In this document: positions 30,205-64,000 of the stretch, piece by piece
How the letters are laid out: every line of letters begins with the position of its first letter
Position numbering within the stretch: the first letter of the stretch is position 1
Source of the DNA: Brachypterus glaber
Taxonomy: Eukaryota; Arthropoda; Insecta; Coleoptera; Kateretidae
DNA length: 64,000 bases
Assembly (NCBI GenBank): GCA_958510825.1
Contig: OY294049.1
Location: forward strand, 29,769,415 to 29,833,414
Reading direction: 5' to 3'
The notes under the pieces: model-generated
What the model saw: only the letters and a program-made list of their open reading frames with translations
What the model was told of the DNA's origin: nothing
The model's database searches: none
Made by a program: the position numbers and the translations under genes

Positions 30205-30250
30205 ACTACCGTATATTATTCTAGCGCCGGCGCTGTGAATAATATAACAA
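30205..30250. repeat. GCGC-centred hairpin motif (copy 2)
   Basis: TATTATTCTAGCGCCGGCGCTGTGAATAATA is a palindrome related to 5151-5207, with the same CTACCGTAT left flank. Confidence 0.6.
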
Positions 30251-30532
30251 TAATAAAATTTACATAAAATATTAATCCCGAGATCGAGATTTTAAATCAA
30301 ATTCCCGTTCGTGGTTGTGATTGACCTCTCGGGATTGAATTCCCTAATCATAATTCATATTTTATTATAAAATATAAAACTTATTGACCTTGTAATTTCA
30401 AACAGCCAAAATCGGATGCAGAATGTTTTAGTACGTAGAGGGAGAAGGGCGTGGCGTAAAGCGGTGTCGTTCCCTAGTTCAACAGATCTTGGTAACGGTT
30501 CGCGTTGGTCATTTTCATTTACAAATAATGTA

Positions 30533-31611
30533 CGCCATTTACTTAGGGCAAATACTATAGCCAAACATTCCTTCTCAGAAATGGTATACAAACGTTCCCT
30601 ACTTAGTAAAATTCGACTGATTCGTGCAACAACTTTTCTTTCACCCCCTATAACTTGAAACAATTCCGCCCCAAGGCCATCGTCGCTCGCATCGGCCTGA
30701 ACACAAAACTCGTGCTCAAAGCTTGGATGGTAAAGTAGGATACTTTTTTGTATTAGTTGCTTCAAATCATTGAATGACTGTTGTTGAGCTTCGCCCCAAA
30801 CCCACTTACTATCTTTTCGTAACAAGTAAAATAAAGGTTCGGAAACAGTGGAAAAGTTTTTGCAAAAGGTACGGTCAAAGTTGCAAAGACCTAGGAATCC
30901 GCGCAATTGTTTACTATTTTTAGGGGCCGGGAAGTGTTCAACTGCTTCAATCCTTGCCGGGTCTGGGCATATACCCTCGCGGTTTAGTTTATAGCCCAAA
31001 AAATTTACTTCAGACTGAAAGAACTTGGATTTCTCTAAACGCACTGTAAATCCCACCTCCGCCAATCGTTTAAATACCATATGTAAATGATTAATATGTT
31101 CCTCAAATGAGCTAGAAACTATCAAAATATCATCTATATAAAATCTGAGAAAACCACGAAACTGTGGGCCAAATATTTTATCCATACAGCGGCTAAACGA
31201 TGACACTGCGTTTTTTAAACCAAATGGTAGAACTTTAAACACGTATGATTTTCCATTGTGAAGAAATCCCGTATATTGGCGGTCCTTTTTTCGTAGAGGG
31301 ATTTGCCAATATGCGTTGGTTAAATCGATGGTTGACAAATATTCCACCTTTTCCGGCAATGTTTTGAAGATATCTTCTAATGTCCCAGGCTTTTCGGAAT
31401 CTGGAATAATTTCCTGATTTAAACGCCTCGCGTCGAGGCATAATCTTACAGAACCGTCTCGCTTAGTAACGACGCATAAGGGATTGCTATACGCGGTTTC
31501 GGATCTTTCTATTATTCCCCATGCCTCCATAACGTCGATCTGTTTTTGTACCGCCTCTCTATACGCGACGGGTACCGGGTATGGTTTTACGAAAAACGGT
31601 TTATTATTACG
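30533..31611 (-). pseudogene. Ty3 reverse transcriptase and RNase H start
   Basis: The RT frame, open from about 31611, shows YSNPLCVVTKRDGSVRLCLD, the motif A STIDLTNAYWQIPL, VLPFGLKNAVSSFSRCMD, and the catalytic FYIDDIL. After the thumb and connection comes the RNase H entry VQADASDDGLGAELFQ and ISEKECLAIVFAL. At 30533 the frame runs into the Tc1/mariner element; the last 50-odd codons of the open frame (to 30355) are element sequence, giving a chimeric tail. An in-frame TAA at 31612-31614 separates RT from the protease side. Confidence 0.92.
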
Positions 31612-31687
31612 TTAGTGTATGTCATGCTCAAATATGTTTACCCGGCCCGGAATATCAGAAAATATTTGTTTATTATCTTCTATCAGT

Positions 31688-32356
31688 TCAAAAAAAAACT
31701 AAATTTTGTTTTTTAGTTAGATTCGGTAAATTTATTAGATCGTCCGAGTAAGTTGTAGTCTGTCCTAAGATTTGACAAACTCGATTGTTATTGTTAATTT
31801 TTAAAATGTTAGCTTTTATAGAGGGCAACGTTTCCAACTCGTGACGTTCCTTTATCTCCAATATCTTAATAATCTTAGACTTATCTTCTAAATATAAACA
31901 GTTTTGTTTGTAATCGATACTAGCATTAAATAATCTTAGAAAGTCTGACCCGATAATTACCGGATATATTAGATCCGGTATATACAAAAATTCAAAAATG
32001 AAAACATGATTATTTAATGAAAAATTGACTTGTGCCTGATGGGTAACTTTACGGTTTCGTGCTTTAAATGCCCCAGACACCTTAATGCCCGTTACGGGGA
32101 ACACCGGAATGGTGGGGTCCGCGAGGCTGATTTGTTCCCAAACCGTTTGGTTAAAACAACAAACGCTGCTACCGGTATCCACCAAACACGCAAACGTAAA
32201 ATCGCCAATGGCTATGTTAACAACAGGGCACCTCACCTCTGTAGGGACCCCCCCGTGGTCATAGTCACAGTCAGACAACAGGTCTGCTTGTGGGTTGTTA
32301 ACAGGTAATATGGTTCGTATGGAATGAGAAACCTCTAAGTCCGAACCAGTACTCAA
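31688..32356 (-). pseudogene. Ty3 protease
   Basis: This 222-codon frame begins 8 bases after the Gag stop. Residues about 54-66 read FACLVDTGSSVCCF, the aspartic protease D-T-G active site, and PVIIGSDFL near 130 is the second conserved block. A Cys/Asn-poor linker follows. The frame ends early after KKQNLVFF, in a run of T (A9 on the given strand near 31690). The sequence continues with recognisable pol linker in the next frame up to the TAA at 31612, so a homopolymer indel has probably broken it. Confidence 0.88.
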
Positions 32357-32364
32357 AGGCTTTC

Positions 32365-34455: not shown

Positions 34456-34498
34456 CGTATAATTCTCGTGCCAGGTTGGGTGTCAAGATGCGGTGAAA

Positions 34499-35177: not shown

Positions 35178-35537
35178 GTACAATTAATCCAAAAACACAC
35201 AGGTAAACGAACAGCCGCAGTTGGCGACGGTGGAAACGACGTCAGTATGATCCAAACAGCCGATGCCGGTATCGGTATTGAGGGTCGCGAAGGTAAACAA
35301 GCCAGTTTGGCGGGAGATTTCAGCATTCCTCAGTTCTCCCATTTAGCCAGATTACTGCTGGTCCACGGAAGAAGATCTTACAAAAGGTCCGCATCCTTGG
35401 CGCAGTTTGTCATACATAGAGGTCTTATTATCTCTACTATGCAAGCTGTGTTCAGTAGTGTGTTTTATTTAAGTTCGGTTGCTTTATATCAAGGATTTTT
35501 GATGGTTGGATATGCCACTGTTTACACTATGTTTCCG
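35178..35537 (+). CDS. ATP9: ATP9-type P4-ATPase, exon G (GDGxND hinge and TM5)
   Basis: Acceptor GTTTTAG|GTA and donor CCG|gtaagt, phase 0, 120 codons. It continues exon F directly and encodes [20 protein letters not shown] (the Mg-binding hinge of the P domain), [15 protein letters not shown], then [15 protein letters not shown] and TM5-TM6 around [20 protein letters not shown]. The match to the family is gap-free across a 23.8-kb intron. All catalytic motifs of the gene are therefore conserved despite the transposon load. The remaining exons (TM7-10) were not found to the right. Confidence 0.95.
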
Positions 35538-35689
35538 GTAAGTTTAAAAGCGATTTAGAAAGGAAATCAGAAAATATTCTTAAACACAAAGTTGATCCAG
35601 TTATCCGTATTTACACGGTCTTATGTAAAAGTAACAAAGGAACATATTTCCGGAAATAGAAAATAGCCCTAAGGCAGCTACGGCCCTTC

Positions 35690-37216: not shown

Positions 37217-37941
37217 TCTGTGTAGATTCATCTGTGGGTTTATCTCAAATTGAGAAATAATAGATAAAAACTGCATAATTTACTATTTTTCAAAAAGGTA
37301 TCGCTATCTTTGTCTGTTGCACAGGTCATGCGCATCGCTCTTTCTCTGTCACACCACACGCAACTCTACTAGGAAGATCAATATCGATTTATTGTTTCTT
37401 ACGCTAGACGGTGTGCCTCTCACTTGCACTTATTCCGTGTCTTATCTCGATTTAGCCGTTAAGGTGAGAACGCACTAAGGTATCCAGTTTATCCAAAGAT
37501 GGGACACATATGCTAGGGAGACACACCGAAATACGCAGTAACCGCATTTTATTTTTTTCGCTAAGTTTAAATATTTAAATATTAACGCTTGATATTGAAT
37601 TTAGTCACGCTTAGTTTTCACTCGCTTGTGTTATTCACACCGCTTAATTTTTGACTACTTGTGTCACGCTCATAATTTTGATTTTTTTGTCACGATTATA
37701 AATCTCAAACGCTTATTTTTCATTCGCTTGTGTTATTCACGCCGCTTAATTTTGACTACTTGGGTCACGCTTATTATTAGATTTAACTTTATTCGTTAAT
37801 ATCTAACGCATTTGGTTAAAAACTTTATAACCAGTTTTTGTATTTTACGCTAGATATATTGCAATTCTACGCTCATTTACGCTTTTTTATTTTTTGTGTG
37901 CATTAGCATATATACTTTCGTTGTACTTACGTCGAAACACC

Positions 37942-39468
37942 ATGCCTCCTACTACAGGTACAAGCACTGGTATGGCCACAATTCAGCGTGAGGCCGCTCT
38001 GAAAAAAATTCAGGATCACTTGGCGTTGGCCAACTTATCCAAAACGGAGGAATCTCTTCGTGGACGGTTAAGGATGGTCTATGAAGATGTTGATAAAATT
38101 CAACGTGACTTCCAAAAGAGTCACAACGCTCTTTTGTATAAGATGACAGACGCAGATGCAAATAGAGAGGAACAATATGCGATTCAAAAACAATTTGATG
38201 AGGCATATTATACCGTTAAATCTATTTGTTATGAATTTTTTGAAAATGATTTAAATAGATCCATTCATAATACAAGCACTTCTTCTAGTCCTAATGTCAA
38301 ATTGCCTAAAATCACGCTTACTGTATTTGATGGTAAGATAAAGAATTTTCCAACCTTCATAGATCTCTTTAACTCGCTTATCCATAGGAATTTGTCTATT
38401 GGCGAAATTGAAAAATTTTCCTATCTCTTATCTTCGCTAACAAGCGAACCCTTATCGCTTATTAAATCGCTAAGTTTAACTAGTAATAATTATGAAATCG
38501 CTTATAAAACGCTTGTTGACCGCTATTCTAATCAAAGAGCAATCGCCACATCTTGTTGGAGAGCTATAGATAACTTACCCAAGTTAACCTCTGATTCAGC
38601 CCCGGGATTACGTAATATGTTGGACACTTTTTCGGAAAATTTGGAGTCTCTAAAAACCCTAAATTTACCCGTACATAATTGGGACTTTATTTTGTTTCAT
38701 ACGCTTATTAAAAAATTAGACGCATCTTCTATTAAAAGATTTGAATTGCAATACGCTACTACGGATATTCCTTCTTACGCTCAATTAAAAACATTTTTAG
38801 AAAAACAGTGTACCGCTTTGGAAACTGTCTCGCTTTCTGTGTGCAAGGAACCCTCATCACAGACGCCTAATAAAAATAATAATAATACCGCAAAATTTGA
38901 TTCTAAATTTTATAAGCCAAAACCCGCAAATTTTTTTATTAATAGTGAAAATTCACAAAAATGTCTATGTTGCAACGGCGATCATAATATTTATCGCTGT
39001 CAAACCTTTTTGAACAAACCGCCTAAAGAAAGGTATTCATTGGCTAAACAAAATAAATTATGCATAAATTGCCTTTCTAGTTTACATAAATTTTCGAAGT
39101 GTAAAAGTCTATCACGTTGTAGTTACTGCACTCTTCCGCATCATTCACTGCTTCATTTCGATACAAAGTCCACGGAGCAACCTCTTGAAGCAGCCTGCGC
39201 TAACCCCTCCACTTTTAATGTCGCGATACCGAACACACATTTTAGTTCAATTGTTTTACCCACTGCTGAAGTAAAAATTTTGGACAGAGACGATAAAACA
39301 CGCCGAATTAGGATTTTGATTGACTCCTGCAGTCAGGCGAATTTTATCACAACTCAGTGCGCAAATATGTTAAGCTTAAATAAACTTGATTTTTCACAAA
39401 ATATTCAGTGTATCGGTAACGTGGCTACGGTAACAAAGGGCGCTGTTGCCTGTTCTATTCGACATTAA
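37942..39468 (+). CDS. BEL/Pao Gag and protease N-terminal part
   Basis: ATG at 37942 is chosen over the upstream open codons because the protein body (MPPTTGTSTGMATIQREAAL) starts here. Residues about 20-110 are helical. About 120-310 is the BEL Gag region (LPKITLTVFDGKIKNFPTFI, SLTSEPLSLIKSL). Two zinc modules follow: CLCCNGDHNIYRC and CINCLSSLHKFSKC, with CSYC after. The protease block reads RIRILIDSCSQANFITTQCA: the usual D-S-G is D-S-C here. Translation then runs 30-odd residues and stops just after the deletion junction near 39450. The protease is probably inactive; Gag looks intact. Confidence 0.9.
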   Translation: MPPTTGTSTGMATIQREAALKKIQDHLALANLSKTEESLRGRLRMVYEDVDKIQRDFQKSHNALLYKMTDADANREEQYAIQKQFDEAYYTVKSICYEFFENDLNRSIHNTSTSSSPNVKLPKITLTVFDGKIKNFPTFIDLFNSLIHRNLSIGEIEKFSYLLSSLTSEPLSLIKSLSLTSNNYEIAYKTLVDRYSNQRAIATSCWRAIDNLPKLTSDSAPGLRNMLDTFSENLESLKTLNLPVHNWDFILFHTLIKKLDASSIKRFELQYATTDIPSYAQLKTFLEKQCTALETVSLSVCKEPSSQTPNKNNNNTAKFDSKFYKPKPANFFINSENSQKCLCCNGDHNIYRCQTFLNKPPKERYSLAKQNKLCINCLSSLHKFSKCKSLSRCSYCTLPHHSLLHFDTKSTEQPLEAACANPSTFNVAIPNTHFSSIVLPTAEVKILDRDDKTRRIRILIDSCSQANFITTQCANMLSLNKLDFSQNIQCIGNVATVTKGAVACSIRH

Positions 39469-42208
39469 ACAAATGTTTCGTCAAATATTAATTAATCCCG
39501 CACATAGAAAATACCAAAGGATTCTCTGGAGATTTTCGCCGAAAGATGCTATTCAACATTACGAGCTTTCGACTGTTACATACGGGTGTAACTCGAGTCC
39601 CTTCTTAGCAAATCGCACAATTCTCAAATTATGTGAAGATGAAAAGGAATCTTTTCCGTTGGCATGCGACGTGGTAGCGGAACACATTTACGTGGATGAC
39701 ATCGCTTGTGGTAGGGATGACATAGATTCTTGTTTAAATTTACAATCGCAAATTATTTCTTTATTAAAGCGAGGGGGTTTTGAGTTACGCAAATGGGCCA
39801 GTAATGACGCAAGACTTTTAGAAAATATCCCAAGGGAATATACTTTACAGAATTCGCTAAATTTCGATGACAGCCCAGAATATATTAAAATTTTAGGGCT
39901 GCAATGGCAACCTTCATCAGACACCTTTTCTTATAAAATTAATTTACAAGATAACGCTTGCACAAAACGCACTGTACTTTCAGAAATTGCTAGAATTTTT
40001 GACCCTATCGGTTTTCTAGCACCACTTACCTTTTTCGCGAAATATTTAATTCAATATTTGTGGACACTTGGGTTGGATTGGGATGATCCCACCCCTCCTG
40101 AGGTACAGGCACGCTGGAATCAGTATAAATCTGAATTACCTCTTTTAGAAAATTTACAAATTCCACGTCAATTAGTTTTTGAAAATAAATATACTTCATG
40201 TGACCTCATCGGCTTTGGAGATAGCTCAGAGCGCGGTTATGCGTCGATAGTATATTTTAAATTTACGTTACCGGACGGTACTGCTAAAGTTTCTTTGGTT
40301 TCGGCTAAAATTAAAGTAGCTCCGTTAAAACGCATTTCCATACCTAAACTTGAGTTATGTGCCGCTGTTCTATTATCGGATTTGATAGAATATATTTTAA
40401 ATACCTATTCGAGTATTATTTCGGTTTCAAAAATATATGCTTTTACCGATTCAACAGTAGCGCTCTCTTGGATCCGGTCATCGCCGCATCGGTGGCAGAC
40501 GTTCGTCAGTAACCGAGTTAGTCACATTCAGAGTAAGGTTTCTCCCAATCTATGGTACCATGTAGGTACTGATGCGAACCCCGCGGATCCCGCAAGTCGT
40601 GGACTTTTACCCGCCGAGTTATTAAATAATAAGTTATGGTGGGCGGGGCCTGATTGGTTACAAAACCCCCCTGATACTTGGCCGCTAGATATTACCCAAG
40701 AAAATGACCTTCCTGAAGCCAAAATATTTACTTTTGCCGCCGCACTTGAACCAATCCTTTTGGATTCGCTACTGGAAAGATTTTCCAAACTTTCTAAAAT
40801 ATTGCGTATTTTAACTTATATTTTACGTTTTATTAATAATTGCCGTTTTCCGGACAAACGCAAAGTGGGACCCTTTCACGAGGAAGAACTTTATAATACA
40901 TTACTTATATTAGTTAAACACGTACAAAAAATCGCTTTTATGGATGATTTAAATAAAATGAAAAATAAAAATTTATTGTCTAAACCGCTACGCAAACTTA
41001 ACCCGTTTATTGATGACTCCGGTTTGTTAAGAGTTGGGGGTAGATTGACTCATTCTTTTGATCTAGATTATGATAGAAAATTTCCGCTACTATTGCCCCG
41101 CGATCATCGTCTAACTTACTTAATCATTGAAGATTGTCATAATAAAAATCTTCATGTTGGTTTGAACGCTTTACATTTTTTGTTACTACAGAACTTCTGG
41201 ATTCTTTCTCCGAAACGTGCTATTAGGCATTGCCTGTCTAACTGTTACCGCTGTTTTCGCGCTAAACCCGTCCCGCTACAACCCTTTATGGGTGATTTAC
41301 CTTCTTTTCGCATAAATCAGATAAAGGCTTTTAGTTGCGCATGCGCAGACTTTGCTGGCCCGTTTTTTGTCACTATGGGAAAGCACCGCGGCGTTAAAAG
41401 TCAAAAGGCTTACATTTGTGTATTTTTTTGCGCAGTAACCAAGGCAATTCATTTGGAATTGGCTTCGGATTTAAGCATGGAAGCATTTCTCGCGGCGCTA
41501 CGCAGGTTTATCGCACGGAGAGGAAGAATAACGCAATTTTTCACCGATAATGGAGGAAATTTTGTCGCCGCAAGACGCGAAATTTTATTTAACTTTCAGC
41601 AAGCAGCTGAACGCGAAAAAATTATTTGGAATTTAAATCCGCCTTCCGGTTCACATTTTGGAGGTCTATTTGAGAGTGGAGTTAAATCCGTTAAAACTCA
41701 CATTTATCGAGTCATTGGTCAACAAATTTTGACTTATGAAGAATTTTATACGCTTCTAGTACAAATAGAGGCCGTGTTAAACTCTCGCCCGATTTGTCCG
41801 CTGTCTAGTGATAGTTCGGATTTACAGTGTCTTACTCCTGGTCACTTTTTGACTCTTTCCCCGCTTACGGCCTTACCAGAGCCTGACTTTTCTTCTTTAA
41901 AGATTAGCCGTTTAAATCGTTGGCAGCTTTTACAACGCCTACACGGTGATTTTTGGAAACGATGGCATTCTGAATATTTATGTACGCTTCAGCAACGCGA
42001 AAAGTGGACTAAGCACACTGAAAATATTAAAGTTGGGGCTTTAGTTCTCATTAAGGACGAAAACTTGTCGCCTTTAGTGTGGCGCATGGGAAGAGTAGTA
42101 GAGTTGCATAGTGGCAGTGATGGAGTGTGCAGAGTAGTAACGCTTCGCACCGCAAATGGTCTGCGCAAGAGACCAGTTGTTAAACTTTGTCCTTTACCCT
42201 CTAATTAG
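39446..42208 (+). CDS. BEL/Pao RT (N-terminally deleted), RNase H and integrase
   Basis: Open for 920 codons from the deletion junction. It starts inside RT motif A (VLFDIKQMFRQILI), followed by TYGCNSSPFLANRTI and EHIYVDDIACG (active-site YVDD, about residue 82). RNase H is at about 255-395 (IGFGDSSERGYASIVYF, KLELCAAVLL, FTDSTVALSW, ADPASRG). Integrase is at about 535-900: zinc module with NLHVGLN and CYRCFRAK, ACADFAGPF, FTDNGGNF and HFGGLFESGVKS giving the D,D,E triad, then a C-terminal module (WRMGRVVELHSGSDG). The missing RT fingers (including the FDGSAK block) make it inactive, while integrase is complete. Confidence 0.92.
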   Translation: MPVLFDIKQMFRQILINPAHRKYQRILWRFSPKDAIQHYELSTVTYGCNSSPFLANRTILKLCEDEKESFPLACDVVAEHIYVDDIACGRDDIDSCLNLQSQIISLLKRGGFELRKWASNDARLLENIPREYTLQNSLNFDDSPEYIKILGLQWQPSSDTFSYKINLQDNACTKRTVLSEIARIFDPIGFLAPLTFFAKYLIQYLWTLGLDWDDPTPPEVQARWNQYKSELPLLENLQIPRQLVFENKYTSCDLIGFGDSSERGYASIVYFKFTLPDGTAKVSLVSAKIKVAPLKRISIPKLELCAAVLLSDLIEYILNTYSSIISVSKIYAFTDSTVALSWIRSSPHRWQTFVSNRVSHIQSKVSPNLWYHVGTDANPADPASRGLLPAELLNNKLWWAGPDWLQNPPDTWPLDITQENDLPEAKIFTFAAALEPILLDSLLERFSKLSKILRILTYILRFINNCRFPDKRKVGPFHEEELYNTLLILVKHVQKIAFMDDLNKMKNKNLLSKPLRKLNPFIDDSGLLRVGGRLTHSFDLDYDRKFPLLLPRDHRLTYLIIEDCHNKNLHVGLNALHFLLLQNFWILSPKRAIRHCLSNCYRCFRAKPVPLQPFMGDLPSFRINQIKAFSCACADFAGPFFVTMGKHRGVKSQKAYICVFFCAVTKAIHLELASDLSMEAFLAALRRFIARRGRITQFFTDNGGNFVAARREILFNFQQAAEREKIIWNLNPPSGSHFGGLFESGVKSVKTHIYRVIGQQILTYEEFYTLLVQIEAVLNSRPICPLSSDSSDLQCLTPGHFLTLSPLTALPEPDFSSLKISRLNRWQLLQRLHGDFWKRWHSEYLCTLQQREKWTKHTENIKVGALVLIKDENLSPLVWRMGRVVELHSGSDGVCRVVTLRTANGLRKRPVVKLCPLPSN

Positions 42209-49101: not shown

Positions 49102-49393
49102 TAGAAGCCAAAAATCAATAAAAAACGTCGAATTTATCGAAGAAAACGGACGCCAGAGTCCACGTTGTGTTGCATCGAGCGCTAGCCGGCGAAACTTCAA
49201 ACGGTCAGCCGACACTGATGTAAACAAGCCTGCTGCCGAAAGCAAAACTACCGTCAAAAGAAGAAACCCCGTAAGATACAAAAATCAGTAAATTTACACC
49301 AAAGTAAGTCCATTCCATTTTATCTTATCCTAATCTATTTTTTAAACATTTCTCAATTTGTTTACGATTATACAAAAAAAAATAATTTCTACA

Positions 49394-50551
49394 ATGGAAT
49401 ACGAAATTAAAAAATTGAAGGTTAAACGGGCTACCTATAAATCTGCTTTAACTAGATATGAAACTTTTTTGAACAATTTATCGAATGATAGCGATCCAAA
49501 TGATTTAGAATTCCAATTAGAGTCGAGATTAGAAAAATTAATACCGCTTTTAGATGATTTTCAAACTACACAATATGAGTTAGAACTTTTGGATGAAGCG
49601 GAACAAAACAATGACGAACGCGATATTTTTGAAACAAAATATTATAATATAATAGCTGCTATAAAAACTGAACTAAGAAAATTAACAAACAAAAATGAAA
49701 ATAAAAGCGTCAAAAGCGTTGCTAACACTGAAATATTTAATCCTATGAAAAATATTAAATTACCCACTCTTGATTTGCCAACTTTTAACGGAAAATATGA
49801 GTCATGGCTTGAATTTTATTATACATTTAATGCAATTATAGACAAAAATAACTTACTAACCGATGTACAAAAAATTTTCTACCTGCGTTCTTCATTAAAG
49901 GGTGAAGCTGCGAATGTTATCCAATCGTTGGAGGGCTCAGCAGCTAACTATAAAATAGCTTGGGATCTTTTAAGTGAGAGATATTATAACAAAAGGCTAA
50001 TAATACATAATCATGTCAAATCTTTGTTTGAATTACCTACAATTACATTCGAATCACATACAGCACTCAGAAATTTAGTTGATTGTATCAGAAAGCACCT
50101 ACGCGCATTAGAATCGTTAAAACAACCCACCAATACATGGGATACGATTTTAATTTACCTTTTTACTACCAAATTAGATCCTATTACAAAGCGAGAATGG
50201 GAATCAACAATCAATACAGAAGTTCCAAGCCTGGACGATTTTTTAACTTTTTTGACTAGTCGATGCCAACTTTTAGAAACCATACAAACAAAACCATTTT
50301 ATTCAAATAAACCTAATACAAATTACAATCAAAACAATCCAAAAAACACTAAAGTGACCAATCACGTCAGTGTTGATCATGCGCCAAATTGCATGTTTTG
50401 TAAATCCAATGATCATATTATATATTATTGTAACGAATTCAAAAATCTATCAATATATAACCGAATCAAAGAAATAAAAAATCTTAAACTGTGCCTAAAC
50501 TGTTTGAGATTTCAACATACTTTAGACAAGTGCACCTTAAGCTCTTGTTAA
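49394..50551 (+). pseudogene. BEL/Pao Gag with premature stop
   Basis: The frame from MEYEIKKLKV (ATG 49394) has 385 codons. It has a coiled N-terminal region, then LPTLDLPTFNGKYESWLEFY, LKGEAANVIQSL, and two zinc modules CMFCKSNDHIIYYC and CLNCLRFQHTLDKC. It stops with TAA at 50549-50551 directly after LSSC, but the same frame continues TCNKKHNTLLH. In BEL Gags this continues the knuckle, so one substitution created the stop. Beyond an Asn-rich stretch and a frame change, a protease block VLLDSGSQSHFITRNLF is readable near 50866-50916 with the normal D-S-G. The copy is inactive. Confidence 0.88.
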
Positions 50552-51169
50552 ACTTGTAACAAAAAACACAATACGTTGTTACATATTGATAATAATCATT
50601 CTAACACTACAAATGCCACAATAAATCCTAATCATAATACAAACAATTCACAAAATAATCAATATACAAACAATTTAAATCCAAAAAATAATATTTCACA
50701 AACCAATACAAGTCTAGCTAATGACACACCTAGTACGGTTACACATTCCACGATTCTAACAATGATATTACTGCACACAGTGTAATAAATAACAAAACCC
50801 AAATACTACTTTCAACTGCAGTTATAAACGTATTCGATAACTGTGGAAATTCTCATGAATGTCGAGTTTTACTGGATTCTGGAAGTCAGAGCCATTTCAT
50901 TACAAGAAACCTATTTTCTAAATTAAACCTAAAATCAAAACCTATAACTATGTCAATAAAAGGTGTTTGTCAAACAATATCTCCTATTAATGAAATAACA
51001 AATATTGAAATTTCTTCTAGATATACTTCTTATTTAAACAATATATCTTGTCTAATTACACTACCCGACATGATTTATATACTATTGATGAGATATATAG
51101 GGTCTAGAAGTATTTTTTCTCCTGATTTCAAATCCGTTTTTAGAATTCTTCCATCACATAACAATTTTG

Positions 51170-51612
51170 ATATACAGGGTGTTTTATAATAAAAATAGGC
51201 ATTTTTTTGAACGTCGGGAGATTTCACATTTATGAATATTTTTTTTCAAATTTGGTACACATGTTAAAAATTTGTGTGCTTTTCGAATATTTAAAAAAAA
51301 AATTAAATATCGATTGTTATTTGTTTTTTATAATAAAAAGTAAAAGCTTTTTCGTTGCCAAAATTTTAAAAGATGGAATTTTTCGATGTAACTAACAAAA
51401 AAACACTCTGTATTTATATGGCTTCAATTTGGTTTCAATTTTTTTTGAAGGACCTTCTGGAAGCGGCACAATATCAATTTTAAGTCAATTATGTCAGATA
51501 TTTTAACAGCGTTTTGCATACTTTAAGAACAATAAGTAGGCTTTGTACAAAAATTTGACGTTTTAAGTCAAGTTAAATGATTCAATCAATTAACTAGAGC
51601 ACCCTGTCAAAA
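51170..51612. mobile_element. Possible MITE bounded by ACAGGGTG/CACCCTGT
   Basis: TATACAGGGTGTTTTATAAT at the left and AGAGCACCCTGTCAAAACA at the right are short inverted ends. The interior is AT-rich and non-coding. Confidence 0.4.
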
Positions 51613-53210: not shown

Positions 53211-53255
<45 letters not shown>

Positions 53256-54864
53256 GGCAGACAGACAGATAGACGGACGGACGGACGGACGGACGGACGG
53301 ACGGACGGACGGACGGACGGACGGACAGAGACAGACAGACAGGGACAGACAGACAGAGACAGACAGAGACAGACAGAGACAGACAGAGACAGACAGAGAC
53401 AGACAGAGACAGACAGAGACAGACAGAGACAGACAGAGACAGACAGAGACAGACAGAGACAGACAGAGACAGACAGAGACAGACAGAGACAGACAGAGAC
53501 AGACAGAGACAGACAGAGACAGACAGAGACAGACAGAGACAGACAGAGACAGACAGAGACAGACAGAGACAGACAGAGACAGACAGAGACAGACAGAGAC
53601 AGACAGAGACAGACAGAGACAGACAGAGACAGACAGAGACAGACAGAGACAGACAGAGACAGACAGAGACAGACAGAGACAGACAGAGACAGACAGAGAC
53701 AGACAGAGACAGACAGAGACAGACAGAGACAGACAGAGACAGACAGATACAGACAGAGACAGACAGAGACAGACAGAGACAGACAGAGACAGACAGAGAC
53801 AGACAGAGACAGACAGAGACAGACAGAGACAGACAGAGACAGACAGAGACAGACAGAGACAGACAGAGACAGACAGAGACAGACAGAGACAGACAGAGAC
53901 AGACAGAGACAGACAGAGACAGACAGAGACAGACAGAGACAGACAGACAGAGACAGACAGAGACAGACAGAGACAGACAGACAGAGACAGACAGAGACAG
54001 ACAGAGACAGACAGAGACAGACAGAGACAGACAGAGACAGACAGACAGAGACAGACAGACAGAGACAGACAGACAGAGACAGACAGACAGAGACAGACAG
54101 ACAGAGACAGACAGACAGAGACAGACAGACAGAGACAGACAGACAGAGACAGACAGACAGAGACAGACAGACAGAGACAGACAGACAGAGACAGACAGAC
54201 AGAGACAGACAGACAGAGACAGACAGACAGAGACAGACAGACAGAGACAGACAGACAGAGACAGACAGACAGAGACAGACAGACAGAGACAGACAGACAG
54301 AGACAGACAGAGACAGACAGAGACAGACAGACAGAGACAGACAGACAGAGACAGACAGACAGAGACAGACAGACAGAGATAGACAGACAGAGACAGACAG
54401 ACAGAGACAGACAGACAGAGACAGACAGACAGAGACAGACAGACAGAGACAGACAGACAGAGACAGACAGACAGAGACAGACAGACAGAGACAGACAGAC
54501 AGAGACAGACAGACAGAGACAGACAGACAGAGACAGACAGACAGAGACAGACAGACAGAGACAGACAGACAGAGACAGACAGACAGAGACAGACAGACAG
54601 AGACAGACAGACAGAGACAGACAGACAGAGACAGACAGACAGAGACAGACAGACAGAGACAGACAGACAGAGACAGACAGACAGAGACAGACAGACAGAG
54701 ACAGACAGACAGAGACAGACAGACAGAGACAGACAGACAGAGACAGACAGACAGAGACAGACAGACAGAGACAGACAGACAGAGACAGACAGACAGAGAC
54801 AGACAGACAGAGACAGACAGACAGAGACAGACAGACAGAGACAGACAGACAGAGACAGACAGAC
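53205..54864. repeat. GACA-derived satellite: 4-, 10- and 14-bp tiers
   Basis: It begins with (GACA)n at 53209-53265, then (GACG)n to about 53325. A 10-bp unit AGAGACAGAC runs to about 54030, after which a 14-bp unit AGAGACAGACAGAC runs to the LTR element. A few 10/14 mixtures lie near 53940-54060 and 54305-54330. It lacks stop codons in several frames, which produces long spurious ORFs on both strands. Confidence 0.97.
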
Positions 54865-56005
54865 TGTAATAGGGTGCTGGTCCCAATTATAGCCAAAAAT
54901 ATTAATTATCTAAGGCATTAATTTAGAACCACACACTATTATTTGGAGGCGTATCAAATACAAATAGCTGTATAGTTGCTATTTGGGTAGCGTGCCACCA
55001 GTAATAATATTACATAATATTATCACAATATCATATATCATATGATAACAAATGTTAATATAATAATCTAATTACTATTTAATACTTATCTGACTTTCTT
55101 CGATGTTTCTTCGATGTCTTCATATATCACTAACTTTATATAGAAATGTGAAAGGTAAAAAAACTTCAAATATATTTTAAATTAATTAAAATATATCTTG
55201 CCAATAAAACAAAGGGATTAAACAACAATTAAAAGAATTTAATAAAAGAAAAATGAAAAGTTTAATACAAATAAAACAACAAAATATTTTAATTTGAAAT
55301 GAAAAAATTATGATTAAATAGCATCTTTACCCTTCAAATATTTCTATACTCGCGACTCTAAATTTTACTTTAAATTTTCACATATTACGTTAATTCTACA
55401 ACTTCCCTAAGACCCAACTTTACTAGACGACTACATATTTCCGAATCCCATTTTTGACCATAACTAAACACAGGCAAAACGTCCCTTCCCAAAGATGCTG
55501 ATATACCAGTCATAAAACTATAAACGAAAATATCTGAGGAGTTTTCTGCCAAAAAGTTATATTATTATAAAAATAATATTAATTGAAAAATTACTTTAAA
55601 TCACTGAAAATGAATTTAAATTTAATTAAGAGAAATGATTAAAAAAACTACTTCTACTTATTGATTGATATTGATTTTCATGACATTGCTTCGAAGTAGA
55701 AAAAACCATTTTTACAAACAATCCCTAACTATTGCCAGTATCTAAAACAACATCATTAAAGATATTCCCATATTTATTAATTAAGAAAACCGAATTAACC
55801 AATTAATTAGGCTAATAAAAATGTACACCCTTTTTATGTAAACGCCTCAATTACACAAAATGCAAGCTTCCCAAATACTAATAATATTAGCATCTGTAAA
55901 AATAAACAGCAAACCACCCGTTAAGAACAATGCTATGTCACGTTCAATAACCATACAAATAAAAATATAAATACTCAATATATAAAGGGTGACCACTCTG
56001 TTACA
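54865..56005 (-). repeat. 3' LTR of the Gag-macrodomain element
   Basis: TGTAATAGGG...CTGTTACA on the given strand. I saw three mismatches to the 5' LTR, near 55328, 55352 and 55869. Confidence 0.97.
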
Positions 56006-56008
56006 ATA

Positions 56009-56020
56009 CTCCCCCCTTTT
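56009..56020 (-). promoter_or_regulatory. Polypurine tract
   Basis: The complement of CTCCCCCCTTTT, i.e. AAAAGGGGGGAG, lies three bases from the 3' LTR. It is the expected plus-strand primer for reverse transcription. Confidence 0.85.
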
Positions 56021-59000
56021 AAAAAATCAGATTAATTTGAACAAAACTTTAAATTAATTGATTTAGATACTATTTATACAAAACAAAATGGCAATATAAA
56101 TCTTCTGAAATGGACATCATCTTCTTCTTTCTTCTATAATCTTCACTCCTAACTCCCATACTCGGACAATCCAATGCTAATTCTTCTTGAGACCTACTCA
56201 ATCAGTCTCTTATAATAAAAACCCATATTCAAATTAATGAACTACTTTAGAACCTACTCAATTCAATCCCAAGTAGCACAAAAATCTAAAGTGATTAATA
56301 TTATTCTTCTCTATTAGCATTACCATCATCTATGGAATGAATATGGAAAACAACCAAAACAAAAGAAAAAGAAACGGAACTGTAACAAAAAAAATTAATA
56401 CGTTCAAACTAAATTTTATTTCCCCAGTTTTCACGAGAAAACGGGAAAATATCAAGTGCCTGTCAAGAATCGGTGTATCAGTGTAACTTCAGTACAACTC
56501 CATAATAACTTCAAAATCCTAGAAAAACTTTTAACTTTACCCAACCTTTAAGGTAACTTCAGCAAGTGTAAAGTTTAACTACTAACTTCTTCTGATCACA
56601 TTGTCAGCACTTCCACAAGCTCCTGAAGTTTGGATACAACCAACAACCTTAACTTGACAAAAACTTCTCGTTATTCAAATATCTTTTCTCAACACAGAAT
56701 CATTATTGAAAAACCAAACCTAAAACTCATAAAAAACATTAGAAACAAAGCATTACTATTTATACCTAAAATTTAATTAATTCCTTAATAAACGCAAAAC
56801 TTTTCTCATAATAAAAAACACAAATGTATACACACAAAATACTAAGTTACTACCTGTAACGTTTACCTTAAGTTTCATTATTAATTTAAACTTAATTACA
56901 AACATTTGATTTCTTTATTTTAACTGTTTCATAAAACTCTATTCTAAACAAAACTTAAAACAAAACTTCAATAAACTTCAAAATATCGAATTCAAGTTCG
57001 TATTTGTGTTTGTGTTCGTGAGGTACCTCTTACTAAATATTACTAATGTACTAGTACTCTAATTAATTAATTAACTAATTAATCTTTAACACAACTATTC
57101 TTTATTCTCATATTTATTTACATATCTCTCAACTAGCATTCTTTGTGAATTTTACCTAAATAATTGTAACCGGTATTACGTAGATCTCACTTATTAAAAC
57201 ACTTTATGGTATTAAAGATAATTAAACATATTTTCATTAATAACAGAATTGTAAATTTTACCAAAAACATTACTTTTAACTTTTTTTTACTCAATAGAAA
57301 TAACAAAGTTGCTTAATTACGCAGCTACTCAACAAAATGATTACCAGGGTTATATTACTAAAATGATTTAAAATGTACATTGCTGCAAACATAAAAAAAA
57401 TTACCAAAATTCTACTTTAAAGTAACCATTCCTATTTGGTTATAATATAGATAAAAACTACGTTTTTTAAAAAAACTTTATACATTACGAAATAGTAACA
57501 AATAACTAGCACACAATTACGTGGATACGTAGTAACTGTTTTGTAACGAGATCGTTCTGCACTAAGTTACAAACATGTAACAAGATAGTAATTATTACCC
57601 TTATTTTTATTCCATATTGCAATTACAACGTAGCTATAGCGTTCCTGTAACTAGTCTTAATTTGTTTCAATTAGGATAATGATCACGTAACGATAACCAA
57701 AAATACTAGTTGGATTATTTATTCAATTCTTTATTGCCTAATTATTTTCCTATTCGTTTATTTATTATACTCAATATTTACTAATTTATTTACTAACTTA
57801 TTTATTTACTTATTTTACCTTACTTCTCTTATTTATGTACTCATATATGCATAGGTTTTTGTACCAATTCCTTTACTAATTATACCCAATATTTACTAAT
57901 TTATTTATCAAATTATTTTATTTCACTTATTTTACCTTATTTCTCTTATTTATGTACTCATAGGTTTATGTACCTATTCTTTTACTTATTATACCGGTAT
58001 ATACTTTTAAATTCAAAAAAATACTTCTATGGTATACCATACTAACACTTTTAGCTTCTGCTAAAAATTTCATTTCGACTGTATAATATAAAAAAAAATC
58101 TCATTTTAAAATTCCTAATTTGCTTAACTTTTGAAGCAAATGTATAAAAATATACCTATAAACTCAATAAAACCGCTTTTATAACTACTTAGACCTTTTT
58201 ATAATTCATTTCGAAATCTCTAAAAATTTTAAATACTTCCAAATATATTCCAATAAAACTAAATCAAATTATTACACTAATTAATCATTCCGACAAATTA
58301 ATAAATATATATTACGATATTTTCCACTCAAAACTTTTCAAAAGAAAACGTGTTTGTAACACTACAAATGATATAAGCTATACTTGATTAGTCCATATCT
58401 TATGGTTGTTAATCGGTTTAAAAATATAGCTACAATCTTTCATTTAGACTTCTAGGTTCAAATATTATTGCAAAATACTTTCATTGATAAAATAGTCTGT
58501 TTTAAACACAGGTTTCAGCTTCAAACCTTAAAAATTAAATCAATTCCTATTTTTCTAACTGAAATTTATGTAGATTACAAACTTTTCAAAAAACGTAATT
58601 ACTTAACTCATTATTACTTAAAAAAAAATAACTCGCTAACCCAAGAACTCATATACTAAAAATTTATTATAACCAAAGTAAACGTTTCTTATTGCGCTTC
58701 TTATTCTTATTACGTTACTGAAAAAATGTAATTTTATAAAAAAAACTCGTAAAACATAAAAAAATTAACAAAATTATGTGCAAAAGATAAATTTTAATTT
58801 CTATAATATTCATTTAGGCTTTTCTTAAAAAACTGAAAGTAATTTAACAACCAAAATTATCAAAACACTCAAAAATATTAAAAATAGTCAGTTATTGATA
58901 GCATCTTCAAAAAAAAAAAAACGACAACTTTTTTTAAAAACAAGAAATTACGCATTTTAATGCCCAAAACAAAACAAAATTTTGCATTAGCATTCATAGA

Positions 59001-60005
59001 CTTTTATTCAACCAATCATACGCACATTTATTCTCGGTGGCCACCTTAACATACAGACATAAAACATAACATATGCAATAATTAATACCTAACATTTGAG
59101 TACTATCGATAACTGCAAAATTAACTTCAAAAAACATTTATTTATTTTTTAAAAAAATAGGTCAAACTTTAAAAACTAATATTTTCTTGGAAAATATATT
59201 TAACTGTAACATATGCCAATTTTAAGCCTTTTTCTAACTAAATTTCTTCATAACTGCAAATATTAAAACTGTATTTCAAAACTACTCTCTGCACATAAAC
59301 TTTTAAAAACAAATTCAACATAATTATGTTTATTAAAATTAAAGAAAACTTCAGTGTCAAAAAAAAATATATTTAAAAAAAAAAACAAATGGCCTTTTTA
59401 TCTAAAAAAAATCTTAGCGAGTTGTCATGACAATTATACATAAAAATAGATCAGAAAATTAACTTTCAAAAATTATTCAATAATATTTACGCTAAACGTT
59501 AAAATAAGCTTTTTTAAGCTTAATGACGATAAAAACTATTTTTAACATGAAATTATGCTTTTCTCATTTGTAAAATATTAATACGTCTATTATCTTTCAT
59601 AATATATATATATATATTTATAATTTTCATTATACATTTTAAAAATACTTTACACAAAATATTGAATTAAAGGGTTTAAATGTACAAATTCTTGACCTGC
59701 ACAAAAAGGTTCACAGCACATGTTTTTACATGTTGTCAGTTAGGGCCTAAAATTAGTGACGCTTAGGATTTTGGGGTGAAAAAAAAAACGTAAATACTGG
59801 TTTGTATAAACAAAACTTTAAAATAAAGACAACAAATTCAAACAAATAATATTTTCGAAAATAACAAGGAAAAAACATATTTTCATAAATTTTCTGATCT
59901 TTTTTACTTAGAAAAATATCGTAATAATACAAAACTACGTTTCTACTCATATACAAAAACTTCGGTCTAGTTATTATAATTAAATTTCACCTTTTAAAAC
60001 AACAG
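56021..60005 (-). other. About 4 kb AT-rich internal region without pol
   Basis: No frame longer than about 70 codons, and no RT, RNase H or integrase motif on either strand. Parts are built from TTTATTTATTTACTTATTTA-like phrases (57730-57990). A short TATATATA tract lies near 59610. It sits where pol would be, so it is either a replaced segment or pol decayed beyond recognition. The latter fits poorly with the near-identical LTRs. Confidence 0.75.
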
Positions 60006-60206
60006 TTAGTACCTAATATAATGTTCATCTCTACCTGAAAATGTACCGCTAACTTCCGGATTTTGCGTAATTATATGTGATTCCTTTTCGGTATTAGTCC
60101 CATAATAATCCGACTCAAAATGTACTTGTTGGCTATTTAAATTACTATAAACTGATAATCTTGCTTTTAGCGGATATGAGAAAATCGTAATATTAACATC
60201 AACGTT
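60006..60206 (-). CDS. +1-frame continuation of the Gag-macrodomain ORF
   Basis: Starting one base past the zero-frame register at TTT-AAA-C (60210-60204), the minus strand stays open for 66 codons to a TAA at 60008-60006. The first residues read NVDVNITIFSYPL, which resembles the last beta-strand expected at the end of an OARD1-type macrodomain. The rest (YSNLNSQQVHFESDYYG, then SGTFSGRDEHYIRY) matches nothing I know. It has no ATG at its head and abuts the upstream stop, so it is either a single-base deletion in this copy or a +1 frameshift product. Confidence 0.55.
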   Translation of the reverse strand, partial: NVDVNITIFSYPLKARLSVYSNLNSQQVHFESDYYGTNTEKESHIITQNPEVSGTFSGRDEHYIRY

Positions 60207-61506
60207 TAAAAATATAACAAATCATTTCCTTTACTTTAACCCAATTAAGCTGATCCAAACCACATCCTATTCTTGGCAAACCCAAATATTTAACATTGTT
60301 TTTAATTACGTGATTTCTTAGTTCTAAAAGTGTCTTCCACAAAATTTCATATGTCGGCTTTTCGTATGAATACTTTTTCGTTACCAAATAATAAATAAAC
60401 CTATCATTATCCTTCAAAACTGCCAAACCGCCTGTACGAACTTTTTGATTTTTTAATTGATCTAATTTACCAAATTTTGACTTAAATTGAGTTGCAATTC
60501 CTTTATTCATAGCTAAATCTTCTGATACACAGTGAGCGAGAGAAACATTTTCCGGGCACAAAAATATGTCTTGGTACTTTTCCTTAATTCTATAATCGTC
60601 CGCTTTGAAATTAATTGATTTAAAATATTCGTAATTATCCTGATCTCTAATTTTGGTACCCTTTATGGTATTATCATATATAAAATTGTAAAAACCCAAA
60701 TTTCCTACCGGATTGTGCCTTTGAAATTTCCGCCTATCATAAAAATTATTGTACCTATTGCGTGTTTGATTATACCTAGGTTTAAAATTATAATTACTAT
60801 TAATATTAAAACCGTTTCTATCATTATTACTATTATTACCGCAAAATTCATTATTATTATTATAATTTATTTCATTTTGTAAAACAGATATTTTGAGATT
60901 ATCCTGAAATTCTATAAATTGATCGTGAAAAGTTTGTTTAATTAATCTAGTTCTAATTTCTAGTATATTCTCCCCAGCTTGCAATGCTTCATCGACGCTA
61001 AAAAATTTACCGCTACTAAGTATTTCATTAGCTAAAACTGTGTCTATACCTTCAAAAAACTGATCTAAGATAAGACGATTATAAACTACTTCATCATTGG
61101 GACACGATTTACCAGAAAACATTTTATTTGCCAATATTTTTAAACGAATTACAAAATTTGCTAATGGTTCATCATTTAAACGTATACAAGTGGACAGTTC
61201 ATTTTTAATATCAAAAAAATTAACCTTTTTCGTATAAATTCTACTAAAAAACTGTTTTAAATCTACCAAATTAGTGGGGCGTTCATTTTCTCGTAAAGCG
61301 TGAAAATAAACTAATGCCTGACCTCTTAATTTCAAAATAATTAAATCTATTGTTTCTTGCTCTGTCAAACTATTATTTTTAGCAACAATATCTACGGCAG
61401 TAAAAAATAATGAAAAATCGGGACCACCTGAAAAATTTTCTACTAAGTCAAAGGAAAAATTGCTCTTTTTCACTTGAGTCATCTTTTTGCAACATTCGCA
61501 ACACAT
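60199..61506 (-). CDS. Gag fused to a TARG1/OARD1-type macrodomain
   Basis: 435 codons, ATG at 61506, about 290 bases after the 5' LTR. The N terminus is Cys-rich (MCCECCKKM). Residues about 18-200 are a Ty3-type Gag capsid region (FSFDLVENFSGGPDFSLFFT, LRGQALVYF, FFEGID). Residues 213-265 are Asn/Arg/Tyr-rich and have no CCHC knuckle. Residues about 308-435 are a macrodomain: VSLAHCVSEDLAMNKGIATQ, FKSKFG, FIYYLVTKK, KPTYE, LGLPRIGCGLDQLNW. In the TARG1 family a Lys in the TKK turn and an Asp in GCGLD carry out ADP-ribosyl-ester hydrolysis; both are present (K377, D418). The ADP-ribose-binding loops (KGIA, PRIGCG) are kept. The zero frame stops one strand short of the domain end. Predicted: particle protein with ADP-ribose binding or removal activity. 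Confidence 0.88.
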   Translation of the reverse strand: MCCECCKKMTQVKKSNFSFDLVENFSGGPDFSLFFTAVDIVAKNNSLTEQETIDLIILKLRGQALVYFHALRENERPTNLVDLKQFFSRIYTKKVNFFDIKNELSTCIRLNDEPLANFVIRLKILANKMFSGKSCPNDEVVYNRLILDQFFEGIDTVLANEILSSGKFFSVDEALQAGENILEIRTRLIKQTFHDQFIEFQDNLKISVLQNEINYNNNNEFCGNNSNNDRNGFNINSNYNFKPRYNQTRNRYNNFYDRRKFQRHNPVGNLGFYNFIYDNTIKGTKIRDQDNYEYFKSINFKADDYRIKEKYQDIFLCPENVSLAHCVSEDLAMNKGIATQFKSKFGKLDQLKNQKVRTGGLAVLKDNDRFIYYLVTKKYSYEKPTYEILWKTLLELRNHVIKNNVKYLGLPRIGCGLDQLNWVKVKEMICYIFKR

Positions 61507-61776
61507 TTTGTTATAAAATAATTAAATAAATTTACCTTGGGGAAAAACAAATATCTATAGTCTAAAACAAAAATTAAAAATGACCGCAAGGAAATGGCTA
61601 AAAAACTTAACTTTAAAACCCACACAAAAAAACACTTATACCTGTTCGTACTTTTACGTAAAACTAACGAATCGGTTACCAAAAAAACAGAAATATGTGA
61701 AAACTGAAAATTCCTCATTAAAACGCAAAAAAAACTATAAAAACGTAAAAAAAATAAAACCCAGCGTTATTTAACG

Positions 61777-61794
61777 CGTTTCCGCTGTCCACCA
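61777..61794 (-). promoter_or_regulatory. Primer binding site-like sequence
   Basis: Read on the minus strand, it is TGGTGGACAGCGGAAACG, 3 bases after the 5' LTR. It begins with TGG as required to pair with a tRNA CCA end. The tRNA was not identified. Confidence 0.6.
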
Positions 61795-61797
61795 ATT

Positions 61798-62938
61798 TGT
61801 AATAGGGTGCTGGTCCCAATTATAGCCAAAAATATTAATTATCTAAGGCATTAATTTAGAACCACACACTATTATTTGGAGGCGTATCAAATACAAATAG
61901 CTGTATAGTTGCTATTTGGGTAGCGTGCCACCAGTAATAATATTACATAATATTATCACAATATCATATATCATATGATAACAAATGTTAATATAATAAT
62001 CTAATTACTATTTAATACTTATCTGACTTTCTTCGATGTTTCTTCGATGTCTTCATATATCACTAACTTTATATAGAAATGTGAAAGGTAAAAAAACTTC
62101 AAATATATTTTAAATTAATTAAAATATATCTTGCCAATAAAACAAAGGGATTAAACAACAATTAAAAGAATTTAATAAAAGAAAAATGAAAAGTTTAATA
62201 CAAATAAAACAACAAAATATTTTAATTTGAAATGAAAAAATTATGATTAAATAGCATCTTTACCCTTCAGATATTTCTATACTCGGGACTCTAAATTTTA
62301 CTTTAAATTTTCACATATTACGTTAATTCTACAACTTCCCTAAGACCCAACTTTACTAGACGACTACATATTTCCGAATCCCATTTTTGACCATAACTAA
62401 ACACAGGCAAAACGTCCCTTCCCAAAGATGCTGATATACCAGTCATAAAACTATAAACGAAAATATCTGAGGAGTTTTCTGCCAAAAAGTTATATTATTA
62501 TAAAAATAATATTAATTGAAAAATTACTTTAAATCACTGAAAATGAATTTAAATTTAATTAAGAGAAATGATTAAAAAAACTACTTCTACTTATTGATTG
62601 ATATTGATTTTCATGACATTGCTTCGAAGTAGAAAAAACCATTTTTACAAACAATCCCTAACTATTGCCAGTATCTAAAACAACATCATTAAAGATATTC
62701 CCATATTTATTAATTAAGAAAACCGAATTAACCAATTAATTAGGCTAATAAAAATGTACACCCTTTTTATGTAAACGCCTCAATTACACAAAATGCAAGC
62801 TTTCCAAATACTAATAATATTAGCATCTGTAAAAATAAACAGCAAACCACCCGTTAAGAACAATGCTATGTCACGTTCAATAACCATACAAATAAAAATA
62901 TAAATACTCAATATATAAAGGGTGACCACTCTGTTACA
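61798..62938 (-). repeat. 5' LTR of the Gag-macrodomain element
   Basis: 1141 bases, the same length as the 3' LTR. It should hold the promoter of the minus-strand transcript. Confidence 0.97.
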
Positions 62939-64000
62939 AGACAGAGACAGACAGACAGAGACAGACAGACAGAGACAGACAGACAGAGACAGACAGACAG
63001 AGACAGACAGACAGAGACAGACAGACAGAGACAGACAGACAGAGACAGACAGACAGAGACAGACAGACAGAGACAGACAGACAGAGACAGACAGACAGAG
63101 ACAGACAGACAGAGACAGACAGACAGAGACAGACAGACAGAGACAGACAGACAGAGACAGACAGACAGAGACAGACAGACAGAGACAGACAGACAGAGAC
63201 AGACAGACAGAGACAGACAGACAGAGACAGACAGACAGAGACAGACAGACAGAGACAGACAGACAGAGACAGACAGACAGAGACAGACAGACAGAGACAG
63301 ACAGACAGAGACAGACAGACAGAGCAGACAGACAGAGCAGACAGACAGAGACAGACAGACAGAGACAGACAGACAGAGACAGACAGACAGAGACAGACAG
63401 ACAGAGACAGACAGACAGAGACAGACAGACAGAGACAGACAGACAGAGACAGACAGACAGAGACAGACAGACAGAGACAGACAGACAGAGACAGACAGAC
63501 AGAGACAGACAGACAGAGACAGACAGACAGAGACAGACAGACAGAGACAGACAGACAGAGACAGACAGACAGAGACAGACAGACAGAGACAGACAGACAG
63601 AGACAGACAGACAGAGACAGACAGACAGAGACAGACAGACAGAGACAGACAGACAGAGACAGACAGACAGAGACAGACAGACAGAGACAGACAGACAGAG
63701 ACAGACAGACAGAGACAGACAGACAGAGACAGACAGACAGAGACAGACAGACAGAGACAGACAGACAGAGACAGACAGACAGAGACAGACAGACAGAGAC
63801 AGACAGACAGAGACAGACAGACAGAGACAGACAGACAGAGACAGACAGACAGAGACAGACAGACAGAGACAGACAGACAGAGACAGACAGACAGAGACAG
63901 ACAGACAGAGACAGACAGACAGAGACAGACAGACAGAGACAGACAGACAGAGACAGACAGACAGAGACAGACAGACAGAGACAGACAGACAGAGACAGAC
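62939..64000. repeat. 14-bp GACA-derived satellite, continuing past the window
   Basis: AGAGACAGACAGAC units, nearly perfect, with two single-base losses near 63325-63345. It is the same array as 54035-54864, split by the LTR element. Confidence 0.97.

Follow-up and report, generated by a model that had tools for sequence, protein, structure and literature searches.

We analysed a 64-kb window of Brachypterus glaber DNA, the window being the whole stretch under study. On its minus strand a single open reading frame (ORF) of 435 aa runs from an ATG at 61506 to a TGA at 60199. The first-pass annotation, made from the letters alone, had read it as a retrotransposon Gag fused to a TARG1/OARD1 macrodomain; the coordinates proved right, and the strand, which had not been given, is minus. 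Self-comparison of the window revealed a direct repeat (54865-56009 and 61798-62942, 99.65% identity). With their bounds judged by TG...CA ends, the repeats are two long terminal repeats (LTRs) of 1141 bp that differ at 3 sites (0.26%) and enclose a complete LTR element at 54865-62938. Because the LTRs differ at only 3 of 1141 sites, we conclude that the element was inserted recently, presumably roughly half a million years ago if insect-like rates hold.

The Gag-macrodomain frame is the sole long ORF of this element, and tblastn with the Gypsy and BEL proteins of the window and with proteins P0001-P0018 detected no pol within it. This corrects the picture of an ordinary Gag-Pol retrotransposon. 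The element appears to be a non-autonomous Ty3/Gypsy-type LTR retrotransposon, in which no pol in the order PR-RT-RH-IN was recognised. An 18-base string counted from the start of the primer-binding-site-like sequence is unchanged in four other copies (L011-L014) and has one mismatch in an old relic (L015). AGAC stands at both flanks of the element, a possible 4-bp target duplication that is ambiguous within the surrounding GACA-type repeat. Rfam at gathering threshold returned nothing within the 64-kb window. The features are collected in Table 1, where the DUF1759 frames are, we assume, of BEL/Pao type. Two further plus-strand frames in the window (9379-10011 and 35178-35558) match P-type ATPase and phospholipid-translocating ATPase models and probably belong to a single host flippase gene whose exons are scattered across a retroelement-rich region.

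Table 1. Features of the window and two loci of a second family elsewhere in the genome (positions are those of the window unless a contig is named).
Feature	Position	Strand	Remarks
RT-bearing element with inverted pieces	13799-17603		
Gypsy-type element	27316-34482	-	RT and integrase, weak gag match
Two DUF1759 frames	37831-42208 and 49346-51189	+	one followed by Pao-type pol
GACA-type microsatellite flank	53211..54864, continuing 62939-64000	.	surrounds the element
3' LTR, 1141 bp	54865..56005	-	ends TGTAACAG...CTATTACA on the minus strand
Polypurine-tract-like AAAAGGGGGGAGTAT	56006..56020	-	adjoins 3' LTR; by eye
Internal region, ~4 kb	56021..60005	-	stop-to-stop frames of at most 82 aa
Open frame out of register with the ORF	60006..60221	-	last TARG1 strand DVNITIFSY and ~50-aa tail
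Gag-macrodomain ORF	60199..61506	-	435 aa here; 500 aa in 28 of 38 open copies
TARG1/OARD1-type macrodomain, residues 300-434	60205..60609	-	last strand missing in window copy
Codon of D418	60253..60255	-	aligned with catalytic Asp125 of TARG1
Codon of K377	60376..60378	-	aligned with catalytic Lys84 of TARG1
Asn-rich linker, residues 196-299	60610..60921	-	CCHC knuckle absent
Ty3-type Gag capsid region, residues 16-195	60922..61461	-	44.5% identity to L010 Gag; PNMA weak
Primer-binding-site-like TGGTGGACAGCGG	61782..61794	-	3 nt past 5' LTR; by eye; TGG-type
5' LTR, 1141 bp	61798..62938	-	self-comparison of window; LTR ends read
Second-family locus L067	G000:C9:133501-136500		integrase then TARG1-class macrodomain
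Second-family locus L068	C2:34691001-34694500		integrase then TARG1-class macrodomain

Next, we compared the C-terminal part of the ORF with known structures. Using phmmer against the PDB, we found that residues 296-434 match chain 2lgr_A (E 2.8e-38) in a gap-free alignment over 139 residues, and that the top five chains are all C6orf130 or O-acetyl-ADP-ribose deacetylase 1 (TARG1), which we take to be the human protein. K377 and D418, proposed at first pass as the catalytic pair, fall on Lys84 and Asp125 in this alignment; the numbering uses an inferred 8-residue offset of the PDB chain. These are the residues named in the relevant passage of one paper (PMC9411070), and the corresponding passage of another gives the dyad as Lys84 and Glu125 (PMC7050489). 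The Pfam Macro model alone stayed just under its cut-off (20.7 bits against 22, E 4e-4). In NCBIfam the sole match was DarG, another ALC1-like member, at 42.7 of 250 bits, well below cut-off. By its sequence, the window macrodomain can be assigned to the TARG1 (ALC1-like) macrodomain hydrolases, and enzyme activity is predicted for it. A chance ORF is ruled out by the E value to TARG1 together with the dozens of copies described below.

The Gag part matched only weakly when taken alone. Similarity to PNMA, presumably a Gag-derived family, was below cut-off (E 0.003-0.006; residues 36-143 at E 0.0057), residues 1-290 as a single sequence had no PDB match at E ≤ 10, and the best chain for a two-Gag profile was Arc2, presumably from Drosophila, at E 0.12. 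Among 611 candidates, no database homologue of residues 1-230 was found at E ≤ 0.01. The match that carried the assignment came from the same genome. A pol-bearing Ty3/Gypsy element (L010), whose matching stretch is the Gag of another family without a macrodomain, is 44.5% identical to the window Gag over 191 aa (E 4e-55). Since the capsids are this close, the comparison settles, as far as sequence can, that the window Gag is Ty3-type, in agreement with the first-pass annotation.

The L010 Gag, 445 aa from stop to stop, consists of a capsid, an Asn-rich linker as in the window family, and two CCHC knuckles. Its pol encodes retropepsin (RVP), RT, RNase H and integrase across two overlapping frames; LTRs were not found within 10 kb around the locus, and the family is small, the matches scored comprising a single complete Gag locus plus fragments at two sites. 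In contrast, the window family ends its Gag with the macrodomain, and a CCHC pattern occurs in none of its 42 ORFs. The macrodomain thus stands, as had been proposed, where the knuckles of the related Gag sit. This position and the missing CCHC pattern are what would be expected if the domain were a nucleocapsid substitute that mainly binds nucleic acid in the particle, with enzyme activity incidental. However, the catalytic dyad is kept, and other retroelement proteins, described below, bear the macrodomain at places unrelated to nucleocapsid; we consider this explanation quite unlikely. In one copy (L003), linker residues 196-292 comprise 13 K/R, 11 D/E and 25 N. We also observed a Cys cluster at the Gag N-terminus (61483-61506, residues 1-8), which reads MCCECC in 35 of 38 open copies and might serve as a site for a lipid or a metal.

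We then examined how the window copy compares with other members of its family. We fetched 47 entries, representing 44 loci (3 fetched twice), and obtained 42 distinct longest ORFs. Thirty-eight of these have at least 475 aa, 28 of them 500 aa, and all 38 read the last TARG1 strand in frame, followed by a tail of ~50 aa, which a few ORFs have in truncated form. The frame of the window copy closes before this last β-strand. The copy is therefore damaged, by a real mutation or an assembly error, and without the last strand it may be inactive itself.

To see the family as a whole, we searched the genome (648 Mb, 842 contigs; best 97 of 1178 candidates scored). At least 99 stretches match the Gag-macrodomain ORF, and at least 55 begin no later than residue 14 and reach residue 434, and so cover Gag through macrodomain. 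Among the best 97 of the 1178 candidates, 43 of these 55 full-span stretches are stop-free, the window copy included, and 12 contain stops. Gag N-terminal sequence was found at no fewer than 75 loci (the 55 full-span ones and 20 broken ones). Macrodomain sequence accompanies it in 74 of these 75 or more, on the same or a neighbouring stretch, with two cases 16-20 kb away. The single exception among the matches listed is a decayed copy (C4:22407427-22408253) that has Gag without macrodomain sequence. The first-pass annotation had left room for a chance insertion of the domain into this copy alone, with other family members lacking it; the domain is instead general to the family, and a one-copy accident is ruled out by the dozens of copies across the genome.

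The copies also share the structure of the element. Four loci (L011-L014) were examined in 10-kb stretches that do not include the 3' LTR; over this part they align collinearly with the window element, at 92.8-97.1% identity in the 5' LTR and 93.6-95.4% in the internal region (longest piece of each). Their Gag-macrodomain frame spans 504-509 aa, and the next longest frame in the 10 kb, flanks included, 87-137 aa. Counting the window copy, all 19 loci inspected have a match to the LTR on the 5' side of the ORF; the match is complete at 9 loci and runs off the fetched sequence at 10. The LTR pair was seen in the window copy, and the 5' LTR in the others. Macrodomain sequence is already present in the old relic L015, which is 68% identical and has 22 stops. 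A pol-bearing partner was found neither by Gag nor by leader among the best candidates: the best 40 of 523 leader candidates all adjoin Gag-macrodomain copies, and the nearest other Gag is that of L010 (42%-44.5% identical). In two pairs of copies the longest ORFs are identical, and the members lie 7.1 kb (G000:C1:84098312/84105427) and 6.7 kb (C1:83606585/83613263) apart. An element without one of its LTRs measures 6.9 kb, and tandem copies with a shared LTR would have about this spacing.

Broken copies raise the question of whether the element is simply decaying, the macrodomain having once been needed and the present copies being relics of a finished burst. The lost C-terminal frame of the window copy would fit this, as would the 12 of at least 55 full-span stretches with stops and the further broken loci, at least about 20. 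Against it stand the recent insertion indicated by window LTRs with only 3 differences in 1141 sites, and the stop-free state of at least 43 of the 55 full-span stretches. We regard such a decay as improbable.

Next, selection was measured on the 38 open ORFs, with the window copy left out; choosing long frames favours intact copies. The equivalent of K377 is kept in all 38, and that of D418 is D in 37 and N in one. We found that dN/dS is lowest in the macrodomain (0.19; residues 300-445 of the other copies), followed by the capsid (0.30), the first 15 residues (0.51), the tail (0.99) and the linker (1.87). Counts of synonymous and nonsynonymous changes on a tree were 113 and 99 for the macrodomain (ratio 0.21, bootstrap 0.11-0.42), 63 and 97 for the capsid (0.39, 0.21-0.76), 18 and 109 for the tail (1.53, 0.63-5.81) and 7 and 92 for the linker (2.58, 1.06-10.08). 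The low macrodomain ratio arises partly because dS is high, especially in parts of the domain (0.089, with 0.062 in the capsid and 0.011 in the linker; 38 ORFs). Capsid, linker and macrodomain differ little in nonsynonymous rate (0.014-0.017 in 4 copies; dN 0.017-0.021 in 38). Non-coding divergence among the same 4 copies is 0.042-0.057 (4.2-5.7%), and nonsynonymous divergence is 1.4% in the macrodomain and 1.7% in both capsid and linker, each about threefold below the non-coding value. These data show that the ORF evolves under purifying selection, and the safe statement is that constraint on the macrodomain is about equal to that on the capsid. The very low dS of the linker (60610-60921) could reflect codon make-up or a cis-acting RNA signal.

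The origin of the macrodomain was addressed with a tree. We found one host TARG1-like exon of 107 residues and no further host TARG1 exons in the neighbouring 2.7 kb (L074). Compared with its best-matching named host-type proteins, this exon is 66% identical to that of Aquatica leii, 65% to that of Rhynchophorus and 63% to that of Agrilus, all of which we take to be beetles, and 61% to that of Anabrus, presumably a cricket relative. Two pieces, P0012 and the second P0001 domain, were set aside before a tree was built from 40 macrodomains. It placed the host exon within the insect TARG1 clade (97/97), outside which the retroelement rows fell; parsimony gave 5 label changes, at least 2 of them forced by strong branches, and several branches are long. 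Topology tests followed; apart from the all-retroelement clade, the groups tested were picked with the tree already known. A single capture behind all 10 retroelement rows was rejected (p-AU 0.006), as was a grouping of the window family with the host's own TARG1 exon (p-AU 0.027, on one 107-residue exon). The data are compatible with joining the window family to the insect TARG1 clade (p 0.50), and a shared origin with the integrase-macrodomain family described below gave p 0.24 with its Coccinella protein and p 0.37 when P0013 was added. These sequence comparisons support more than one uptake of the macrodomain by retroelements. Because the window macrodomain does not group with the host exon, recent capture from the host's own TARG1 gene is unlikely. 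The first-pass proposal of a captured TARG1-like gene stands, then, as regards a TARG1-class domain within the element, and is unlikely to hold as regards this host's own gene, whose exon falls in the insect TARG1 clade.

Retroelements can carry host genes, and a low dN/dS is by itself silent on whom a function serves. The macrodomain might thus be a host TARG1 copy lying beside Gag and kept for the host rather than the element. The dozens of dispersed copies with LTRs already make this unlikely, and the host has its separate TARG1-like exon, which does not group with the element macrodomain. We judge a domesticated or passenger gene to be highly improbable.

The search was extended with the TARG1-like protein of Aquatica leii (P0021), which led to a second retroelement family with nine loci among the matches listed. 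In L067 and L068 an integrase (PF17921, PF00665) is followed by a macrodomain (E 1e-7 and 5e-7), and in L068 the ORF after it matches Baculo_F (E 7.8e-15) and is Env-like. Five loci of 1.1-1.4 kb each (L069-L073) have the same macrodomain at 90-99% identity, some with broken frames, and two more lie on C99 and C10. All 7 fetched loci retain Lys and Asp; their 2 synonymous and 4 nonsynonymous codon columns are too few for a selection estimate. Database proteins provided further arrangements: RNase H-macrodomain-integrase (P0013), macrodomain-protease (P0014) and protease-macrodomain (P0035). P0017, P0018 and P0034 are protease-macrodomain-like by similarity to P0035, and P0033 has a retropepsin-like motif by eye. 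The macrodomain is therefore found in five arrangements in retroelement proteins, the window family included, three of them in database proteins. P0013 was not found in viral contigs. A protein of the ladybird Coccinella septempunctata (P0029) groups with the integrase-macrodomain family (93/81), also has, by eye, an Arg/Lys-rich motif after the macrodomain like that family, and may derive from a related element. Separately, a 78.8-kb contig of a viral collection (L001, IMGVR_UViG_3300010233_000005) holds a lone TARG1-like ORF of 173 aa, at 44% to the window macrodomain.

In the second family the macrodomain lies at the C-terminus of integrase, and chromoviruses carry a chromodomain at that same place. 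The macrodomain could accordingly be a reader or tether: by binding to ADP-ribosylated chromatin, or to PARP1 at breaks, it would guide the particle or the integration complex to such sites in a chromodomain-like manner. However, the window family has its macrodomain on Gag, not integrase, and the catalytic Lys and Asp, superfluous for a pure reader, are kept in both families. We think it unlikely that tethering is the main role.

Several RNA viruses use macrodomains as counter-defence enzymes. For the window family, a captured hydrolase working against host ADP-ribosylation appears the most likely explanation, and we favour an enzyme over a passenger because the dyad is kept, the domain is conserved and uptake was repeated. 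In such an element, Gag would form particles that package the element RNA, perhaps via the Asn-rich linker, and reverse transcriptase, protease and integrase would be supplied in trans by another element. The macrodomain might then act on the particle, the RNA or the cDNA, stripping ADP-ribose off Asp/Glu or nucleic-acid ends, or alternatively on host proteins at the target site, and would in this way undo a host PARP mark that would otherwise hamper transposition. According to a passage of PMC7050489, TARG1 releases ADP-ribose attached to Asp/Glu as well as to nucleic-acid ends. A Gag particle engaged in reverse transcription would offer substrates of both kinds. The relevant section of PMC7712786 describes a tendency of mobile elements, many of which belong to the gypsy superfamily, to increase in parp-1-null Drosophila; its authors consider that the cause may be indirect, and some entries in their list were not significant. 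We hold with roughly even confidence the full reading, namely a non-autonomous Ty3/Gypsy-type element whose Gag has a TARG1-class macrodomain in place of its nucleocapsid knuckles and erases host ADP-ribose marks.

The repeated uptake of TARG1-class domains at five places in proteins suggests a wider idea, which we put forward tentatively and with somewhat less than even confidence. Hosts may ADP-ribosylate Gag, integrase or RNA/cDNA ends against transposons, and the particle of the window family would carry its own ADP-ribose eraser. If this is true, an insect anti-transposon defence by ADP-ribosylation would be new. Here selection keeps a macrodomain that has become part of a selfish element's capsid protein, and other retroelements have the domain at other positions. 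This suggests that ADP-ribose removal benefits such elements and that retrotransposons are under pressure from ADP-ribosylation. The finding also offers a testable handle, with the domain, its catalytic dyad, the host PARP set and a natural zinc-knuckle control element.

Finally, we compared the family with known systems. The domain itself resembles TARG1/OARD1/C6orf130 (ALC1-like) without gaps and with both catalytic residues, but it is fused behind a retrotransposon Gag and, in other copies, has an extra tail of ~50 aa. Insect endogenous retroviruses (errantiviruses) with F-type Env resemble the second family, in which L068 has integrase and a Baculo_F-like ORF (PMC12992720); the main text of that paper contains no word beginning 'macro'. 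Among the matches listed from open-access papers other than preprints, judged by title and the opening of the abstract, no Gag-macrodomain or integrase-macrodomain element was found. In plants, TR-GAG elements are LTR elements with a single Gag ORF, thought to be mobilised by proteins made elsewhere, according to the relevant passage of PMC8704663. The window copy shares their LTR pair and single Gag ORF; they differ in that the Arabidopsis ATCOPIA63-related copy has a 562-aa GAG for which that passage mentions no extra domain. Epsilon-like endogenous retroviruses of ray-finned fish contain macro-domain ORFs (Basta et al. 2009, as cited in a passage of the review PMC4977317) and are likewise LTR retroelements with an acquired macrodomain gene. 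By that description of the elements, the fish genes are additional ORFs in vertebrate retroviruses, whereas the window element is a Ty3-type Gag fusion with pol unrecognised. Macrodomain uptake in fish retroviruses and Gag-only LTR elements in plants are thus known precedents. Together, these comparisons indicate a retroelement with a captured cellular gene that is apparently new in its fusion, its host group and its recurrence.
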